The position numbers and the translations under genes were made by a program. From Polytrichum commune (Eukaryota; Streptophyta; Polytrichopsida; Polytrichales; Polytrichaceae): 64,000 bases of DNA. Under the pieces are notes generated by a model. It was not told the DNA's origin, searched no databases, and worked only from the letters and a program-made list of their open reading frames with translations. The stretch spans positions 16,725,501 through 16,789,500 of the forward strand of contig OX485805.1 of the NCBI GenBank assembly GCA_950295325.1, given 5' to 3'. Shown here one piece after another: positions 43,734 through 64,000 of the stretch (the first letter of the stretch is position 1; every line of letters begins with the position of its first letter).

Positions 43734-46292
43734 TTATTGAGATTCAATTGCCAATCTATGTACTACCTGCGAGCTCCAAGTGTTGGGCATTGGCGAAGTT
43801 GGGAAAAGAATGGTGGGGATTCTCTCACTCTCTACAAGCTCGGGGAAGCTCGTCGTGTAATGAAGCCCGCGGCTCTCTTGCCGTGTCAGTGCACTATTGA
43901 TTACCAAATAAGCCACAGAGATCAAGTTGCGCATTTCGCAGACCTCGAGGCTGACCATGGTGGGTTTCCAGCCATGGCTAAGAAGTTGGCCCTCCCACTC
44001 AGCCTCGAGCCCGCTCAGCTCTGCCTGTGCCTTTTTGAGACGCTCCGTCGACCGCACGATACCTACGTAATCCCACATTACTTGCTGCAAACGCTTTCTC
44101 GTTGAACCTGTGATTTGAATAATCTCCTCCATGTGGGAATCCCTAACAGCTGCAGATGCGATTGGACGGGGCCATTCCTGTGCCTCCTTCACCTCATGCC
44201 GGCCGCCATGGAATCGAAGGGCATAAGCCACCGAGGGCTCCACAGCCCGCTCCGCAAACACTAGAGCTTCTAACAAGGAATTGCTCGCCAACCTATTTGC
44301 GCCGTGCAACCCAGTGCAAGTGACTTCACCAGCGGCAAAAAGACCTTCGATGGAAGTCTCGCCCTTCAACCCGGTCTGAACTCCTCCACACATGTAATGT
44401 GCGGCAGGTACGACAGGAATGGGTTGTTTCGTAATGTCAAGCCCATACTTCAAGCACTCTGCTGCAATGTTGGGGAAATGGGCTAAGATCTCTTTGGCCG
44501 GCTTGTGACTGATGTCGAGATACACGAACTTCTCGTTCCGTTTCTTCAGCTGGTCATCAATGCTCCTTGCCACCATGTCACGAGGAGCAAGCTCCGCTCG
44601 AGAATCGTACAGCGGCATAAACCTCTCCATGCTCTGGTTATAAAGGATGCCTCCAGCTCCCCTCATAGCTTCGGTGATCAGGAACGCATTCTCCCGCTTC
44701 GCAGGCTTGATGGGTAGACCTTCATCAGCTAAAGCGGTGGGATGAAACTGCACAAATTCCATATTGGAAACCACAGCATTGGAGCGTTGTGCCAAGGCTA
44801 CGCCATCTCCAGTAGCCACTAAAGGATTCGTCGTGGTTGGGTACACATGGCCTGCTCCTCCCGAAGCCAGCATCGTCACTCCCGCAAGGAACCGCATAAC
44901 TCTCTGCTTTCGTGTATCCAAAGCATCCACACCATAGCAGGCAACCGTTCCATCGCCATTTTGTAGGGTTAGAAGGTCTACAGCAGCGTGATGTTTGAAC
45001 ATGACTATGTCAGGATTCTTGCAAACGGCAGTCAAGAGAGCTCGCTCAATCTCACGCCCTGTCATGTCAGCCGAGTGCACAATTCGGTGGTGTGAATGGC
45101 CACCTTCTCTGGCCAGATGCAGCTGCCCATCTTCGCTCTGATCGAAAAGCGCACCCCACGCTATAAGCTCCCTAACGCGCTCCGGACCTTCGCGACACAC
45201 AACCTCCACAGTCTCCTCGTCACACAGAAAAGCCCCCGCGACTATCGTGTCTCGGATATGACTCTCCACGGAATCCTCAGGATCGAGCACCGCGCTCACC
45301 CCCCCTTGTGCGTAATTCGTGTTGCTCTCGTGTGGCTCCGATTTTGTCAAAATTGCAACCGATCCGTACTTGGCTACCTCCAGGGCGTACCGTAGGCCTG
45401 CAATTCCACTTCCAATTACCAGAAAGTCGAAGTGCTTCGTCAACTCCTTGTCTGAGCTCTCTTCGCAATCGGTTACCCCCTCTTGATCGCTCTCGTGAGA
45501 AGATGCAATGAACCTGTTCACGGCATTCTTCCTGTCCACCGTGTTCGCCTGTACAGGTTTTCCTCCCTCGTGAGTATCAAAAAACAGCGATGATTTGTTC
45601 ATCTACCACATAAACCACCAGGGAATGCTCCAAACCCCACCATGACGTTTAGGGTACATTGACTGAAAAAAATGAGATTGTCACCAGGATCCAAACGCAA
45701 AGCCAATTGACCTCGCCAGAAACCAGCGATGATGCATTAATCTACCACATGAACCACAGGGAAATACCCCAAAACCTCACCGATGAGGTTTATGCTACAC
45801 TCACTGAAATAGAAAGAGATTGTCACCGGGCTCCAATCGCAAAGGCAATTGACCACGTCAGAAAACAACGATGATACTTGCACTTACCACATAGACCATG
45901 GCGGAATGCTCCAAACCTCACCGATGAAGTTTGTGCTGCACTAACTGAAAAAGGAAGAGATTGTCACCAGGATCCAGACGCAAATTCAATTGACCTTATC
46001 GCAAACCAAAAACAAAAAAAACAAAAAATAAAATAAAGACGGAATCGCTGACCTTCGTGAGGCCATTTGAACCCCAGCCCCAGCTGAACAAAGCTCCTTC
46101 GCCAAACACCAATCCCGGCAGTATCGGCAGCTTGGTGAAGCTCTCTCCAACCTTGAACCCCAAACTTGGAGTTCCATTCCCAGGAATTCTCGCGAGCGCA
46201 TTCACCACCACTCCCGCGTGTGCACTACTCGCCAACACCGTGGAGCTCGCCACTTCCCGAACCGCACTCACTCCACCTCCCCTGAGCGCCAT
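43734..46292 (-). CDS. AO: L-aspartate oxidase, plastid NAD biosynthesis
   Basis: The enzyme oxidises L-aspartate to iminoaspartate using FAD, the first step of quinolinate and NAD synthesis in plant plastids. Exon 1 (46292-46053) encodes 80 residues rich in Ala, Ser, Val and Gly, consistent with a transit peptide. Exon 2 (45602-43734) carries the whole enzyme, giving 702 aa. Visible motifs are the dinucleotide fold GSGIAGLRYA, SNTNYAQGGVSAV, HLAREGGHSHHRIVH, MEFVQFHPTAL, RAELAPRDMVARSIDD, HYMCGGV and GLHGANRLASNSL, followed by the C-terminal helical domain (EVCEMRNL, SRGLHYTTSFP). All key regions are present and the frame is intact. An alternative acceptor (exon 2 from 45548) is also in phase and would remove 18 repeat-derived residues, giving 684 aa; Arabidopsis AO is about 650. 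The catalytic domain without introns is unusual for a plant gene. The frame-opening TTG at 46304 is not needed, since ATG 46292 fits. Confidence 0.92.
45585..46005. repeat. Three tandem units of about 140 bp in the AO intron
   Basis: Units start near 45585, 45724 and 45866 with 'ca.cgatgat', then share 'taccacat.aacca..gg', 'tgctccaaac.tcacc', 'actgaaa.a', 'gagattgtcaccagg.tcca' and 'caattgacc'. The first unit covers the intron 3' splice site and the first codons of exon 2. The array therefore spans an exon-intron border. Confidence 0.75.
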
Positions 46293-55889: not shown

Positions 55890-56056
55890 TTAACCCTTAA
55901 AAGAGGTTGCAGGCCAAACTGGCCTACGGTTCTCTGTAATGGATTGCTATTGAACTCAATTCGGATCATTAGAGGTTGGTCCGAACTGCAGATATGTCGG
56001 CACTAACTAGAGGCTAATTGTAGGATTTTCTTCACGATTTTCGGAGCCCTGTATCG

Positions 56057-56353
56057 ATGTCTGAGTCGACAGAAGTGAGGTATTCTGTGTATTCCTACGT
56101 ATTCCTTGGCAACACGGTAGAAGACCGGGTAATGCGGGACAGTCCGGTTGGTGACACTGCGTATTTTGTGGTGGCCGTTGGTGACCTGCTCGGCTGGTCA
56201 GGGTCGTTGGAAGGACACGCTCGTGTGGCGAGGGGAGCCCGAGGGCATTCCCCCGAGATTGCTTCACCTTCCACCTTCTCCACTCCATGTTTAGGGTTCT
56301 CGGAATTTGTTTATCTTTTGTTGAGGGGCATCCGGACTGCATCAAGATGGTGA
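56057..56353 (+). CDS. Hypothetical open frame in the piggyBac-associated block
   Basis: 98 codons from ATG, starting about 160 bp inside the candidate left end. The start MSESTEVRYSVYSYVFLGNT reads like a protein, but no family was recognised. It may be the first exon of a spliced gene continuing into 56287-56963; no splice model was clear. Confidence 0.2.
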   Translation: MSESTEVRYSVYSYVFLGNTVEDRVMRDSPVGDTAYFVVAVGDLLGWSGSLEGHARVARGARGHSPEIASPSTFSTPCLGFSEFVYLLLRGIRTASRW

Positions 56354-56537
56354 TTTGGATGTGTAGAGGTGACTCTTACGATTGTGACAACCACGTCTGG
56401 GGTACTTCATTTTGGTTTGGGGGGGAAATGGATTCCCGGTTTTGGAACATGACGTTTTCGTGGCGGCGGATTGTCCTATACCTTGTTTCAATGTGTGGAG
56501 TTGATCCGTTTCTGAGACTCCAAATTCGTTCCAGAGA

Positions 56538-56963
56538 GTGGGAGGAGTATACATGGAGATTGGCGGCAACTGGAAGAGCGCAGAGCGCGTTTCTTTGGAG
56601 GGGGAATTGGAGAATTGGTTCACAGGGCAGGGGGTTTCAAGTGAAGGCGCATCGCAGGCGGTGCGACTTTTGGACGTGACCGCACTCCTCGCGCAGCCAC
56701 GCCTGAGCCGGTGGAATCGTCGAGGCAATTTCAGCGTCCAAGAACGTCGCAGATATTTGTGGTACAGACACGCCGCCCGAATCCTTGGTTGGTGTGATCG
56801 CACGGGATTCCCCGACATTGTGACCCGCATTCTTCGTGGACACATTTTTCCAACGCAGGGTGGGAGAGATGAAGCGGCTCACGAGGATGTCACGGGGAGG
56901 GTCTCAGCCGGTGCTCGTCCAAGACCGATCGCCATCGACACCGATCATCTCCCCGCAAGTTAG
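56538..56963 (+). CDS. Hypothetical open frame, family unknown
   Basis: Up to 141 codons. The segment QERRRYLWYRHAARILGW then DRTGFPDIVTRILR is basic and aromatic, helix-like and plausibly a real exon. The start codon and exon borders are uncertain. The opposite strand is also open (56342-56845), which weakens the call. No function can be assigned. Confidence 0.25.
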   Translation: MGGVYMEIGGNWKSAERVSLEGELENWFTGQGVSSEGASQAVRLLDVTALLAQPRLSRWNRRGNFSVQERRRYLWYRHAARILGWCDRTGFPDIVTRILRGHIFPTQGGRDEAAHEDVTGRVSAGARPRPIAIDTDHLPAS

Positions 56964-57761
56964 TCGTGTCAGACTTAGATAGCGGCGTGCCGCGGGTTTA
57001 GGGTTTAGTGAGGATCAATGGGTGGTCAGGAGGAATGGCTTGGTGGGTTTCGGCAAGCGTAAACCGACCTTCTGATTGTTGCTGTTGTGCCGGTCAATGA
57101 GTTATTGGAGTTGTTGTGGGGTTTTGTTCAATTGTTCTTGGTGTTGAACCTGTATGCTTTTCACAAATGCCGCTTGTTGTGGAGCGTACAAGTGTGAGGA
57201 TCCAATTTTTTCCATTTCGTTGGTCGCCTGTTTTTTGAAGTGAAGGGTGTTTCGGGAGCATAATCCATCACGGGTTTTTTCTTGGTTGTCTTGGGCGTTG
57301 TCTGTCTGTGTTTGGGTTGCCATGTCTTCTGAAATGTTGGATGTTGCGGACTCCACATGCGAGTGAAAGTGTCGAGGTTTCGTGTCAAGCCTCTTTTCCA
57401 GGAATCTCCTACATAGTGTTCATGTGGTGTGAATTTGTAGGTGCCTTGTGAGTTTCTATCTTTATGTCATTGGTTTATTCTGTATGCGAACGTTTTCCAA
57501 TTACTCGTTTTATGTCTCATACCATGTGGGCATAGTGAGGGAGTGTCTGTGTGCTCACTCACGGTGCATGTGTATGTCACATGGAAATGCATTACAGTTC
57601 TCACCGTGTGTATGTTGGTTCTGCTGGGGGGTTTTGAGCTGGACTTCACACTTGTGAATGAGTGTCGTGCACGATTTGCACTGTCGATGGTCGAACATTT
57701 TAGGCCATTGACATGGCCATGGTGGCCATGAGATTTTCCTAGCGGGAGGAGGCTTGAATCT

Positions 57762-59417
57762 AATGCAGCCCGCGAGCACAGGTGGAGCACCGATGCAGAG
57801 AAGGCCCCGGAAGTGCAAGGTAGTGTGTCTGCAATTTATTGCGCACTTGTGTTGTAGATGTGGGACAGACATTCATAGGAGTGTCATGGTGTTATTCTAT
57901 TTTTATATCGTCCTAGTGCGCGTTTCAATCGAATGTTGTCGTTGGACGCCTTGCAGGGGGTGCTGTATCAGAGCAGGATAGGCCAGGACGAGGGGAAAGA
58001 GAATGTCGATCCGGCTCCGAAGCCAAAGCTTCCTCGGGTGCCCAGGGCGAGGAAGGTAAGCATCGCCCGTCGTTGTGCTCAGACTGTTACGGTGCAGACC
58101 GCTTTAGGCTCCCTAATTGCTCAGGTGCACACACATAAATGTATGTCGTCATTGCGATGTGTTGTTGAGACGCTGTTGATGTTGTTGTGCCCCCGTTGCT
58201 ACAGGAGAACTTGGCGGATGTGGAGGAGGATGTCAACATGGTCCCCTGCACGCAGATTCCTCCTGCAATTGCGAAGGGAGCCTTGAAACGCATCAGGAGG
58301 CCAGGGCAGTGGAGGGCGGCCGCAGATGGGGGGGGGGGGGGACTACGCCGAAGACACCATTGCACCCGACATCGAAGATGGTCGCCATGGCGAAGTGCGG
58401 CTTGGCAGACTTGACGCAGTAGACGCCCATGCCGCAGAGCACCCCGGAAAACGAATTTGGACCTCCACCTCCCGATACGACGCCGACACCCCTACGTGAG
58501 AACTCAGCTGCCTCTGGTGAATTGATTAGTTCATTTTGCTGTAGCGTGGGTATTAGGCCTGAGGTTTATTCTGATTCTTCCTGCATTTCGCAGGTGGACA
58601 GCGGGGTCCTCCCAGGAGACGATCAAGGGAGGAGAAAGGGAAGGTGGTACGCTCCAAGCCCAGGAAGCCGCGTGCATGGATGCCACCCACAATCCTACCT
58701 AACCTGACCGACGGAGTTCGCATGCGGGCTTTGGCGACACAGGTCGCAGAGTATGAGCAACAACTGTTGAACGATGTCACGATCTGTGAGGTGCTGGCGG
58801 ATGTTGGAGAGTACGAGGGCCTGGATGACTTTGTGGCGCCTGAATCACAACATTCCATTGGGAGCATGGACACTTGCAATGTCAACCTCTGGGAATCTGT
58901 GTTCCGGGATGATGTGTGGAGGACCTCAGCCCCTATTTCGAAGCGAACGGGTTTTGGAGCGACACATCCCGGCGGAGCGTTGGAGAGGCCGGTTCTTCTT
59001 GAAGTCGGTATTATGCCGGACCGTTTCCAGGGAACTTATGTGGAGTGGAGTTGCAGGCGGGCTGGGTGGGCCGTGCTAGTCCCCAATAGGTTTCTTACTG
59101 AAGCCTCGTTCCACACGGGAGACACACCTTCTTGGACGCAAGGTGATGTCATCGGAGGGGGTGTGCATGCCGCAACTGGGAAGAGGATGGTGTTGTGCAA
59201 CTTGGGGGGATACAACACGCAGTGCCACCTCAACGAGGAGAGCGTCCGGGTTGCAGATGGTCCGCTGGTGTGTGCTTTCGGGAGCGAAGGGGGCCACGGA
59301 TACGGCTGGTGGAAAAGGCAACATTGCTTCAGCCCCGCTCCTGGTTCTGAACCTATGTATGGCGGGGCAGTCTCAGGAGGGAGTGCAGGCGGGTTGTTGG
59401 GAGCAACTGCAAGTTGA
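57762..59417 (+). CDS. Unassigned spliced gene next to the piggyBac transposase
   Basis: Proposed exons: 57762-57818, 57957-58055, 58205-58495, 58616-59417, about 415 aa, with good donors (gtaagc, gtgaga) and acceptors (ttgctacag, tcctcccag). The N-terminus is basic and Pro-rich (PMQRRPRKCK, KPKLPRVPRARK), possibly a nuclear signal. The middle contains a stretch of 14 G (58328-58341); a run of 13 would be needed to keep the frame that joins exon 4 in phase, so a one-base error or mutation is likely there. The C-terminal part (TILPNLTDGVRMRALATQ, GWAVLVPNRF, GYGWWKRQHCF) belongs to no family I know. Its stop is only 27 bases before the transposase ATG, same strand. It could be an accessory transposon gene, an upstream portion of the transposase transcript, or a captured host gene. 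Confidence 0.4.
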
Positions 59418-59444
59418 ATGGGGAGTGGGGAGGGACCATGATTA

Positions 59445-61386
59445 ATGGAGCACGTCTCTGAAAACATCAACGTGGAGGGGATACCCGACCAGCTAGGAGG
59501 CTACCCCATCACGGATTATGATGCCCCATCCGACACAGAGGGGGTCGATGGTACGCAGGACTCGACGGCCAGAGTCACATTTCCGAAGGTAAGTCATGGG
59601 CTTCCAAAATATATGCTCTGCACTAACATGTCTGTGCTCTCCGATGATGGGGTGGACTTGGGGCTGCTATCGATGGACTCAGGTGGTGAAGAGTGGCTCC
59701 CAGATTTCGGTGACACCATAGAAAGCTCTGACTCTGATTTCGATGTGGATAATTTAGATGAGGGTGAGCCCCCTGCACCTGGCCTGGAATGTTGGTGCAT
59801 GAGCCCGGAGTCATTCACACCCGTCCACATGGACAGTGAACAACTGGCCGAATACTACAGGAAGGAGTCGTGGAATTCTAGCAGCGTGGACTTCGTTAGG
59901 ACCCGGGACAACTTCACGGGCCCTACACCAGGGTTGAAGTCCCGAAATACCCAAGGAGTTCCCTTGCCACACACAATTTTTGATCTGTACTGGACTGATG
60001 CCTGTGTGGACCGGATTGCTCTTGAGACCAACAGGTATGCGAGAGCAGTCCTGCCTCATGTAGAGAATGATGTGCCACGTACAAAAAGGGGACCGACGTG
60101 GAAGGATGTTAATCGCTCCGATATACGGGGCTGGTTGGGAATATGTATCCTGATGGGATGCAAACGTCTACCAAGCGTGCGGCAATATTGGATGCGTAGC
60201 CAACCCTTCCTGTATTTTCAGCTTATATCCTCCATCATGTCTCTGGGGAGGTGGGAGCAGATCATGCGATGTTTGCATCTAGTGGATAACAATAGTATAG
60301 TGAGGGATGTGAATGACCCTAGGTTTGACAGGATTGCGAAGACAAGGTGGCTCATTGAAATGTTTGTCAAAGTGTCAAAGGAAATTTATAACCTCGAGAG
60401 GGAGATCACTGTGGACGAGTGTGTCATCCCCTACAAAGGGCGTTACTATTTCATTAGGCAGTTCATGCCTGACAAGCCGGTACGCTTTGGAATTAAGGTG
60501 TGGCTGTTGGCAAGCTCCAAGAGCAGGTTTGTGTGGCAGATGGAGGTCTACTTCGGAGAGGGCACAGGTGCAGGGGCTCACGGGTTGGGCTACCACGTGG
60601 TCGAACGGATGGTGAGGGGTTTGGAAAACCGGGGCCATTGTTTGGTGATTGATAATTTCTTCGCAAGTGTAAATCTTTTCCATGAGCTCATGTGCAAGGG
60701 GATCTGGGCCACGGGCACCGTCCGACGCACCAACAAGCTGGTGGCCTTTACCGGGAACTTGACTCCAATGTGCGGGGGTCCGTGGTGATCTGGAATCACG
60801 TCCATCAGCAAATGGGCGTTGTGTCATGGCAGGACAAGAAACTGGTGACCCTTCTGAGCACTGCGGCCGGCCCCTAGGAGCCGAACAGCAAGGTCCTGCG
60901 AAGAATTCCGGGGCTTCAAGGCCAGTTGATGGTGCCATCGTCTCCCATGCACCAACAGTACGTCGAGTACATGCGTGGAGTTGATGTCACAGATCAGCTT
61001 CGTGGCAACTATTCATCGCAGCTGAGGTGCCACAAGTGGTGGGTGAAGATTTTTCACTTCATCATTGACCAGACGATGGTGAACTCCTACGTGACTTGGG
61101 TGAAGCAAATGGAGGACCTCGGATTGCCCGTCACCTCGCATCTGGCATTCAAGATCGCTGTGGGAAAGCACCTCGCTGCAGAGGCAATTCAAGCCCGTCG
61201 AAGAGGGCGTGTCCCTCCTGAACCTAGACTGCGACACCCCCCCCCACTGTACACACTTTATTTCGGTCCAAGCTAAAGCGACGATGTGTGATATGTGGCC
61301 GTGTGCAGAGGTGGTTCTGCACGGCGTGTGGGGATAAGTGGATGTGCCCGGAATCCTGCTACCAGGCACAACACGAGAGCATATAG
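59445..61386 (+). pseudogene. piggyBac transposase (DDE_Tnp_1_7 type), frames broken
   Basis: The first frame (59445-60788) has an acidic N-terminus, then the piggyBac fold: WLGICILMGCKRLPSVRQYW, then ITVDECVIPYKGR with the first catalytic Asp (codon 324, 60414-60416) and LVIDNFFASVNLF with the second (codon 403). The frame is lost around 60745-60770 and homology continues one frame over (VRGSVVIWNHV, then MRGVDVTDQL with the third Asp at 60983-60985). A TAG at 60875-60877 interrupts it. A second shift falls in a run of nine C at 61237-61245, after which the C-terminal zinc finger (CVICG, CTACG, CPESC, QAQH; 61285-61386) follows. The enzyme would cut and paste DNA at TTAA. All catalytic and zinc-binding residues survive, so inactivation is recent or partly due to sequence error. 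Confidence 0.85.
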
Positions 61387-62771
61387 GCCATGGGTTAGAT
61401 GTGTCACATTTAACAATGTGGGAGACGTGCTTTTGTTGGTGCAGGAAAGAGTCTCGGAATGGACTGGAGGGGATACGGTTCTGGTGATCGGCGTGGACGT
61501 GGCATCTGCTGTGAGCAAGTGTGGACAGTCGTCTCCACCCCGGCACCGCCGGTGGTCGCTTTGATTTATCTTCCAATGGAGAGGGGTTGGCTCACAGATC
61601 AATGCCACTGTGGGCGTTTGGCCTCCGTCACAGTTATGTTTGGACTCGTGACATGGGTTTGTGGACTCCCTCGAGCGCGACTTGGGACACACTGAGGGAC
61701 ATTTTGGACTCACTGACGGCCATTTAGTGGCTCACTGACGGTCTTGTTCGATCTCACTCTGCTCTACATTTGTCAGGATTTTTGTAACTTCCCGTCACAG
61801 CCCTTCCTCTGCCACGTCCCAGACATAGGACTCCTACTCTGCTTGTAAATGCTGAACATTGTAAATGTAGCATGGCCAATTTTGATGTTCAATTTCCCCT
61901 ATTATGTTACAGAATCGTGTGAGGAGTGGATGTGTGCTAAGCTAACAATCACAGTGCAACGTGTTCGGCGGATTGGCACGATAATGTGTGGTAATTATGT
62001 TTATGGTGGGGGATGGACAGCGACTGTCGGGGCTACATTTCAGCTAATCACTGTGTCGTTCACAGTCCGAAGCAGGCAGGGTGTGCTTCTCCATCCCGCG
62101 GCGAGAGGCAGGGCTAATAGCATGGTTTGTGTGGTCTCATTTGTCGCCCCAATGTTTGTCAGCAGATTCAGGCAAGAATTGCCGATACATGCAAGTGTAA
62201 GGCAGACCTGTAGGAAGTCGTCACAACAACAAATATGTGCAAACGGAGACGACTTCTGGAAGACGGAGAGGGCAGATGTGGATATGTAATCTAGCTGGAG
62301 GATTGGGGAAATAAACTGCAATTTCAACCTCAGGGGAGTGGTCGTTATAGTTATCAATTGATATATGCGCCGTTGCTCGACCGAAGGTGATTGTGACCCC
62401 CTCGAGTACTCCCGGCTTGTACCAGAGGAGCACTCAAGTGGCTTGTGTCATCAATGCTCCGCCGACCATGTGGGTGTCACTGATGGTCGAAGTGACCCTG
62501 TTGTGCATGATGTTGTGGTGATCGCTCCAGATTTGGTCATAATGCTAAACCCTGCACCTGTGTACTTGCCAGCCCGTGCTCACCATTGCTCAAAGATTAC
62601 CACTCTCTCCACTCTCATGTGACTCACATTGCTCTGCCTATCACCTATTCTGTAGTTGTGGCTGTCGTGGTCTGGACATTGAGTACGAGCGGGCTGGTTG
62701 TATGCTGAGGTCAAGCGGAGATATTAGGCGCTCCCTGGTGGACGATCATCAGGCCACTGCGCACGTTATCC
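61387..62771. other. Spacer between transposase and B3 gene
   Basis: GC-rich like its neighbours. Several frames of 65-145 codons are open on both strands (for example 61849-62289 plus), but none has family motifs. It may contain the transposase 3' UTR and the B3 promoter. No TTAA-linked right end was found here. Confidence 0.35.
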
Positions 62772-63907
62772 ATGGCTGATTCATGGAGCGGTCTGGAGGT
62801 GTTGCGAGAGCTGGACGAAGCCAATGCATGTTACTTCGCGCTTACAGTGAAATCTAAAGCATTGCGGTACAAACTGGTATGTACACTCTATTTGTGAAAA
62901 CCCTAGCGTGTGCAGTTTGTGTTCAAGCCTCCCCTGTCCGCGATGGCTCCGTATGTATGTTTGCTACCGGCAGGCGGGCTTGTAGTGAGTATTGGGTCAC
63001 GGCGTGTAGAGGCTCGTCGTTCTCACGGTGCAAGGTAGTGTGTCTATGTGAAACGCAGGAAATACCTGCGACCTTCACTACCGAGACAGGTTGGCCAGGC
63101 GAAGAGAATTGCGCGCTGGTGACGTCCATTACCATTCACAAGGAGTGGCCCTTGCGATTCCGGCGATTCCCCGATATGCGCAGGGGGGTGTCCGCAGTGA
63201 GCGTCGGCGAGGGGTGGGCGAGGTTCAAGAGCAATCAGGGCCTTGGCCTCGGGGCGTTATTGACCTTCGAGGTAGTGGACGAAAGACGCCTCGTGGTCGG
63301 GATCCACCGCCGCAATGCTCTCAAAGAACCGCAGTCATTTGAGCAGCTTCCGGACGCCAGTCACCTTGCGTGTGACTCCCGTGAGCAGCCAGAGGTGGAC
63401 AATAGTTTTCCCAATCACTCGCCTCGGCCCGCCCTCCACGAAGTCCACGGTGATGCCTGCCCCCACTTTCAGAAGACACTTCGCAAGACGCACACCAAGA
63501 AGTGCGCATCCAACCGAATTGTAAGTTGGTTTTCCAATTCTTTTTCATTTCGGCAGCATGTCGTAATTTTTAGGGATTTCTTGTACATGGAGTTCCGGAC
63601 GGGAGGTCAATTCGGAGAGTGCTTTGTCGATAATCCCGTGAGAACTTGATTGGGGTGGGCGCAGGATGTCCCAGTTGCATACTGGCGCAAACACGGACTG
63701 GAGGGGTTCGATGGAATCTGGTACACTCTCAGAGGCCCGCTGTCGCCATGGACGGTGAAGAGTGCTACGTACACTTTCGGGAAGCATATGTTTTGCTCCT
63801 TCACTCAGGGTTGGGCGGGCTTCTGCACCACCAACAGATTCAAGCTGGGCGACTCGTTGTTGTTCACGAAGGTTGGACCAGTCGAATTTGAAGTGACGAA
63901 GGTGTGA
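62772..63907 (+). CDS. Paired-B3-domain protein (REM-like)
   Basis: Three exons in phase, 62772-62876, 63059-63520 and 63665-63907, give about 269 aa. Exon 1 opens the first B3 domain (CYFALTVKSKALRYKL). Exon 2 continues it with EIPATF, then EWPLRF, VGEGWARFKSNQGLGLGALLTFEV and VVGIHRR, which follows the B3 pattern of 'G W..F....l..GD.l.F....'. Exon 3 encodes a second B3 (DVPVAYWRKHGL, then WTVKSATY, TQGWAGFCTTNRFKLGDSLLF, VEFEVTKV). A roughly 60-residue linker with many His and Pro joins them. B3 domains bind DNA through a pseudobarrel and are plant transcription-factor modules; two in tandem without other domains recalls the REM group. In the first domain the usual GD is GA. A further open stretch after the stop (from 63910) could be part of a longer transcript cut by the window end. 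Confidence 0.7.
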
Positions 63908-64000
63908 ACGATGGAGGTCGATGGAGCCGAATCCCTGAAGGCGGATGTGAAGGCGTCGTTGAAAGAAGTGGTTGTGCACCGGACTGGGTGTCGTCACCGT

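Follow-up and report, generated by a model that had tools for sequence, protein, structure and literature searches.

A locus in one plant genome raises the question of whether piggyBac, usually treated as a one-gene transposon and chiefly studied in animals, can be assembled from several genes. The window, by which we mean the whole stretch of 64,000 nucleotides analysed, is C3:16725501-16789500 of a 408-Mb assembly of 64 contigs. From 55.9 kb onwards it holds a piggyBac transposase gene and, downstream, a gene for a protein with two B3 domains. A sequence-only reading had suggested that this block might be an oversized piggyBac element with the B3 gene as cargo. Is the block a single element, and is the B3 gene a passenger in it or a part of it? 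We found that the block is one piggyBac element with the B3 gene inside. It very probably belongs to a spore-bearing plant's family of multi-gene piggyBac DNA transposons, whose TTAA-flanked members combine the transposase with an upstream gene, here called ORF1, and the downstream double-B3 gene.

Borders of the window element

On the left the element is bordered by the TTAA at 55890-55893, directly before CCCTTAAAAGAGG. Once the contig had been extended rightwards past the window by about 30 kb, the exact inverted end and a TTAA behind it were found at extended positions 64863-64883 (C3 up to 16790383). The window element measures 8,986 bp between the two TTAAs (window 55894 to 64879), its last 879 bp lying beyond the window.

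55890-55893, no strand: left TTAA target site, paired with the one at extended 64880-64883 (C3:16790380-16790383), 880 bp past the window end
55894-55910, + strand: left terminal inverted repeat CCCTTAAAAGAGGTTGC, with a perfect inverted copy at extended 64863-64879
55894-64000, + strand: in-window part of the piggyBac element (whole element 55894-64879)

The left end (CCCTTAAAAGAGGTTGCAGG) and the inverted right end (CCCTTAAAAGAGGTTGCCCT) have 17 bases in common and form a perfect 17-bp inverted repeat; the right-end 17-mer CCTCTTTTAAGGGTTAA occurs only once between 50 and 94 kb. TTAA on both sides and short, perfect, 17-bp inverted ends that start with CC (CCCTTAAAAGAGGTTGC) place the window copy in piggyBac. 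The proposed opening by a TTAA-CCC end was thus matched by a perfect inverted right end, and the change of composition claimed at 55.9 kb was also observed. In 500-bp steps the G+C fraction was 0.35-0.41 from 54.0 to 56.0 kb, outside the left end, and 0.45-0.59 inside, and it was back to 0.35 from about 64.9 kb, past the right end. A chance TTAA was rejected on the strength of the perfect inverted end with its TTAA and of the 17-mer TTAACCCTTAAAAGAGG, which occurs 26 times in the 408 Mb (twice in the window element) while its reversed control occurs 0 times. A B3 gene outside the element was rejected because the right end, at 64879, lies beyond that gene and not before 62.7 kb.

Conserved blocks differ between the two ends. 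In 9/9 left ends TGGCCTACGGT lies directly inward of the inverted repeat, six of them having the fuller palindromic form GGCCAANNTGGCCTACGGT, and TACGTA lies about 203 bp from the left end in 6/9. Other conserved blocks occur at the right end, where 12/12 copies have ACGTA some 240 bp from the edge. The excess of TACGTA largely reflects one conserved site near each end. The ends are therefore asymmetric, as they are in piggyBac.

Copies of the family and their mobility

Other copies with the same edge, the existence of which the sequence-only reading had left to be checked, were readily found. Facing ends were paired by eye among the matches listed, giving 18 bounded elements of 0.84-33.3 kb, window copy included; more may exist. 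Inverted ends across these elements were 16-17 bp long and TTAA-flanked. When up to 3 mismatches were allowed on a 20-mer, 158 matches were obtained and the control gave 83; a single distant match is therefore unreliable. All matches were seen on contigs C1 to C7, six of which are 42-78 Mb each. The transposase (scored by DDE matches) was present in 14 of the bounded elements, B3 in 14, ORF1 in 16, all three in 12 and none of them in 2. The 14 transposase-bearing copies had a median length of 11.3 kb, 13 of them being 7.5-16.7 kb and the other 33 kb. Ten 20-kb stretches around copies, one full 11.9-kb copy and one 3.9-kb copy were read.

Two copies on C6 are nearly identical. The 3,916-bp copy at C6:37908946 matched the 11,902-bp copy at C6:41604265 over 2,086 bp with 1 mismatch and over 1,671 bp with none (1 in 3,757 bp in total). 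The match begins exactly at the TTAA and the flanks are unlike on the right-hand side, the side compared. The 3.9-kb copy is an internal deletion of an element like the 11.9-kb copy. When its flanks were joined at one TTAA (150 + 150 bp), uninterrupted matches were obtained at C3:27781553 (100%), C7:22851132 and C5:45259561 (99% each). By their sequence these three places are unfilled target sites with a single TTAA, lying within a repeat, so the expected TTAA junction of an empty site was seen through a copy other than that of the window. One more match, weaker (78%) and with differences in length, lies at C2:62675541 across the junction of another copy. Family membership, together with the empty-site and copy evidence, argues for cut-and-paste at TTAA, in which the transposase would cut the element at its ends and reinsert it at a TTAA, as in piggyBac.

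The longest copy, at C7:6704738-6738012 (L018, L019), contains a 762-aa (amino acid) gene with no Pfam match at the cut-off. This gene belongs to an unrelated, high-copy and recently spread repeat (59 scored matches of 2,397 candidates), and part of the extra length of the 33-kb copy is therefore a nested insertion. Another explanation, that the family is a fusion of virus and transposon like Teratorn of fish, we consider extremely unlikely. Such a fusion would account for an oversized piggyBac with extra genes, and a frame of the 33-kb copy did hit the phage-named Pfam family Gp45_2, at an expectation value (E) of 0.047, far below the cut-off. However, in none of the 20 open frames of these elements that were scanned did a viral Pfam family reach the cut-off. 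The viral contigs gave no relative of the transposase in a search sensitive to close relatives alone, and the additional length of the 33-kb copy is partly that of the unrelated repeat gene. Teratorn-like herpesvirus genes were likewise absent from the 20 scanned frames, the copies of 16.7, 18.3 and 33 kb having been read only in part.

Two further copies are unusual. An 18.3-kb element at C3:14616666-14634982 has B3 and an ORF1 remnant without a DDE match. The element at C2:62694345-62706802 (L028, L029) is a mosaic, with a transposase closest to that of the 33-kb copy (0.19) and a B3 gene closest to that of the window copy (0.24). From this mosaic, elements of the family appear to exchange parts.

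The transposase

57793-58593, + strand: probable 5' exons and introns of the transposase gene, predicted from weaker frame conservation and splice-like borders
58594-61386, + strand: piggyBac transposase gene, broken; open pieces 58575-59414, 59442-60785 and 60878-61273, zinc-finger piece 61249-61383

The window transposase matches Pfam DDE_Tnp_1_7 with 186 bits and has a Cys-rich C-terminus, where a Cys pattern conserved in sequence marks a putative zinc-binding domain. In an open paralogue, three acidic positions, in the columns that we take to be catalytic, line up with those of piggyBat and piggyBac; the window pieces have them too. In these respects the transposase had been described correctly, but it is not intact: compared with an 896-codon paralogue frame it has 3 stops and two frame changes. 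Since the transposase of the window copy is lost while its ORF1 and B3 genes are open, this copy could move only with a transposase from another copy.

The spliced gene reported directly upstream as unassigned proved to be mostly the N-terminal part of the transposase (58594-59414), which shares one frame with the catalytic domain in 6/11 copies. In those six a single stop-free frame of 931-952 codons carries the protein from a splice-like border upstream as far as the zinc finger, and a twelfth copy, C6:41604265, has an open transposase frame of 946 codons. The transposase is thus about 930 aa as an open frame and would be longer with its 5' exons; further 5' exons are likely between 57.8 and 58.6 kb. 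A run of 14 G at window 58328-58341 (+ strand), in this probable 5' exon region, is a possible slippage site. One open protein aligned with piggyBat 9c0f (E 3.6e-32), starting at residue 374, and with piggyBac 6x67 (E 1e-24), starting at residue 456. For its first 460 residues no Pfam family was found, and a search of solved-structure profiles gave one match only, at E 0.78. The median ratio of nonsynonymous to synonymous change (dN/dS) of the transposase was 0.12 (12 copies, 66 pairs).

The B3 gene is a resident component of the family

62772-62876, + strand: B3 gene exon 1 (gene model)
63059-63520, + strand: B3 gene exon 2, most of the first B3 domain (gene model, Pfam)
63665-63907, + strand: B3 gene exon 3, second B3 domain, stop included (gene model, Pfam)

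The paired-B3 gene described downstream of the transposase is real and intact in the window, with 3 exons, GT/AG borders, 269 aa and no stop. Pfam B3 scored 54.8 bits over two stretches (cut-off 30.1), which places the protein in the B3 family. Its position inside the element was correctly anticipated, the right end lying past 64 kb; its description as cargo was not, for the gene is a resident, conserved component of the family. The same three-exon gene occupies the same place in 10/12 copies (9 of the first 11 and the C6 copy). A genome search with the protein gave 38 matches, of which 32 are in the 18 bounded elements and 4 at two one-ended copies on C7, so that 36/38 are element-linked; the remaining 2 are weak host matches (E 1.3e-4). 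The median dN/dS of B3 was 0.32, with a range of 0.23-0.55 (10 copies, 45 pairs). Exon 1 is only partly recognised in some copies, and in the 33-kb copy the exon 3 match stops short. Exon 1 and the beginning of exon 2 are missing from the 3.9-kb copy.

A rival reading is casual cargo, in which one element would have caught a fragment of a host gene, as in Pack-MULEs or Helitrons. In its favour, B3 genes are a host family of plants and form large clusters in this genome, and two transposase-bearing bounded elements, C2:67124892 and C7:20353423, have no B3. Yet a fragment caught by one element would not be expected as the same three-exon gene in the same place in most elements examined, with dN/dS below 1 across all pairs, nor with a closest host match as weak as that found. 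Furthermore, B3 and the transposase have similar mean synonymous differences (pS) across the 45 pairs, 0.56 and 0.51, though the correlation between the two is only 0.32. We therefore consider casual cargo very unlikely, and capture of a Pack-type fragment was rejected on the shared exons and place and on the lack of a close host parent.

Host B3 clusters lie at C4:1.56, 3.7-3.86 and 17.7 Mb, at C1:55.8-57.97 Mb and at C6:5.1, 7.29, 14.5 and 33.4 Mb, with an apparent inverted duplication of host B3 genes at C1:55.94 Mb.

ORF1 accompanies divergent piggyBac transposases

56553-56960, + strand: ORF1, 136 aa, a conserved accessory gene without a Pfam match, open here (copy comparison, selection)

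This further conserved gene had been overlooked in the sequence-only reading. ORF1 was present in 10 of the first 11 copies; the stretch read for the eleventh ends before reaching the gene, which the genome search located there. Eight aligned sequences share the invariant core PR.SRWNRRG.F..QER.RYLWYRHAARILGWC.R..FPD.VT.ILR. Among seven proteins scanned there was no Pfam match at the cut-off (one hit, E 0.038, in one protein), a search of solved-structure profiles gave no match, and a single-sequence fold had a mean predicted local distance difference test score (pLDDT) of 47. The median dN/dS was 0.34, with a range of 0.22-0.52 (11 copies, 55 pairs).

In the genome, 32/36 ORF1 matches lie upstream of a piggyBac DDE match, on the same strand and at most 12 kb away. 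One of the others is at 23 kb in the 33-kb copy, two are in transposase-less copies of the family, and an orphan with stops is at C1:3704295. As a control, 111 of 20,000 random points fell within 12 kb of a DDE match in either orientation (the length of C5 being assumed). Each of the 18 weak ORF1 matches (29-38% identity) precedes some other piggyBac transposase, at a distance of 0.8-3.8 kb, and the six such transposases compared are about 40% identical to that of the window family in the catalytic part. A second piggyBac subfamily, with open frames of 564 codons, was noted at C1:43458170, C3:11875899, C2:7057557, C4:26413857 and C1:11754775, with an ORF1 relative 2.3-2.7 kb upstream.

Weighing a multi-gene family

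Across the three genes the highest dN/dS in any pair was 0.55, and no pair was dropped for saturation. The ratios show purifying selection on the transposase, B3 and ORF1. From selection and linkage we infer that ORF1 and B3 would act for the family.

Several observations weigh against the multi-gene reading or narrow it. All of the evidence comes from one genome. The genes are not open throughout: the transposase has 1-3 stops in 5/12 copies read, ORF1 has a stop in 2/11 copies compared, and the B3 gene of the copy at C3:28563568 (c3_28.6) has a stop in exon 2. The two B3-less elements keep open transposase frames, so B3 is dispensable at least for a time and not strictly required for spread. 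Pairwise divergence of B3 and transposase is only weakly correlated, which would reflect either exchange of parts or few data. The flanks of the window copy are single-copy, and no matching unfilled site was found for it in the genome. TTAA flanks were found in 8/8 other copies; since the search patterns for the ends contain TTAA, this result is partly built in and is not independent evidence, whereas the empty sites are. A k-mer search gave no clear multi-copy motif of B3 type, RY and auxin-type motifs were at chance, and the tandem arrays in 55890-64000 number four, all low-scoring.

Possible roles of ORF1 and B3

The retention of ORF1 next to divergent piggyBac transposases suggests that it may help the transposase, in assembly of the ends, nuclear entry or regulation. 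The B3 protein may bind sites inside the element and either control its own expression or lift host silencing, a role that we liken to that of other plant transposons' own sequence-specific regulators.

As a self-regulator or end-binding helper, B3 would drive or repress the element's own promoters or mark the ends for the transposase. This is a real possibility, if short of an even chance: the double B3 is a DNA-binding fold and conserved subterminal blocks are found at both ends, but the blocks may be core promoters or transposase sites, and the open transposase frames of the B3-less elements speak against such a need. It is also possible, though somewhat doubtful, that B3 is an anti-silencing factor that, by analogy with VANC, would remove host methylation from its own family. 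VANDAL of Arabidopsis is a known plant case; in the excerpts of the reports available to us, VANDAL elements encode the sequence-specific anti-silencing protein VANC, which binds noncoding parts of their own copies (PMC10398659, PMC5735166). B3 evolves faster than the transposase, and the conserved blocks near the ends (ACGTA on the right, TACGTA on the left) are noncoding. VANC targets, however, are often tandem repeats, and few of these were seen in the window part.

A wider proposal is tentative and, taken as a whole, rather unlikely: transposase and ORF1 would form a two-part system across subfamilies, and one branch would have recruited a double-B3 anti-silencing or self-regulating factor in parallel to VANC of VANDAL. 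If true, the same solution to plant silencing arose twice from unrelated parts.

Host and other features of the window

Dynein heavy-chain domains gave 13 matches at eight places in the genome. To our knowledge, flowering plants lack dynein heavy chains, and their presence indicates that the host is a plant with swimming sperm and not a flowering plant. The size of the genome makes a bryophyte the most probable host. Elsewhere in the window, a GC-rich block at 44-46 kb contains a GC-rich open frame of 622 aa (43734-45602, - strand) with FAD_binding_2 and Succ_DH_flav_C, resembling a succinate dehydrogenase flavoprotein.

Comparison with known systems

A plant family with two extra genes under selection means that piggyBac can be multi-component. 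It draws attention to an uncharacterised protein, ORF1, encoded beside divergent piggyBac transposases, and provides a natural case in which piggyBac has carried a plant gene through a long span of evolution. It also adds a second group of plant transposons suited to testing whether elements encode control of host silencing. In the listed titles and beginnings of abstracts of open-access papers, no plant piggyBac carried either a B3 gene or a second conserved gene. The accessible parts of published reports do describe piggyBac-like elements from plants (PMC8086355, PMC10813416) and 1,230 entries labelled PiggyBac in a fern (PMC6890710), so that piggyBac in a spore plant is not itself new. Nor is size alone, since animal piggyBac elements of up to 9.5 kb and transposases of more than 900 aa are on record in the part of PMC10813416 available.

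The family resembles piggyBac and piggyBat in its TTAA target, short inverted ends starting with CCC, DDE_Tnp_1_7 domain and Cys-rich C-terminus. It differs from them in its extra ORF1 and double-B3 genes, in the roughly 460 residues before the catalytic domain and in its median length of 11.3 kb. The double-B3 plant transcription factors are known as REM. Like these REM/B3 proteins, the element's protein has two B3 domains in one small protein; unlike them it is transposon-encoded and has no close host gene in the same genome.

Teratorn, a piggyBac-herpesvirus fusion of fish, is likewise an oversized piggyBac with additional genes and short inverted ends, according to the portion of PMC6431247 available. 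At 41-182 kb in that source, it is larger than the present transposase-bearing copies, of which all but the 33-kb one are 7.5-16.7 kb and in which no viral genes were found; the extra genes here encode a plant DNA-binding protein and an uncharacterised protein.

The transposase of VANDAL is Mutator-like. The present family therefore differs from VANDAL in transposase superfamily as well as in its accessory protein, and an anti-silencing function here would be an analogy. As far as the available excerpts on VANDAL go, the two share the plan of a plant DNA transposon with an additional sequence-specific DNA-binding protein.

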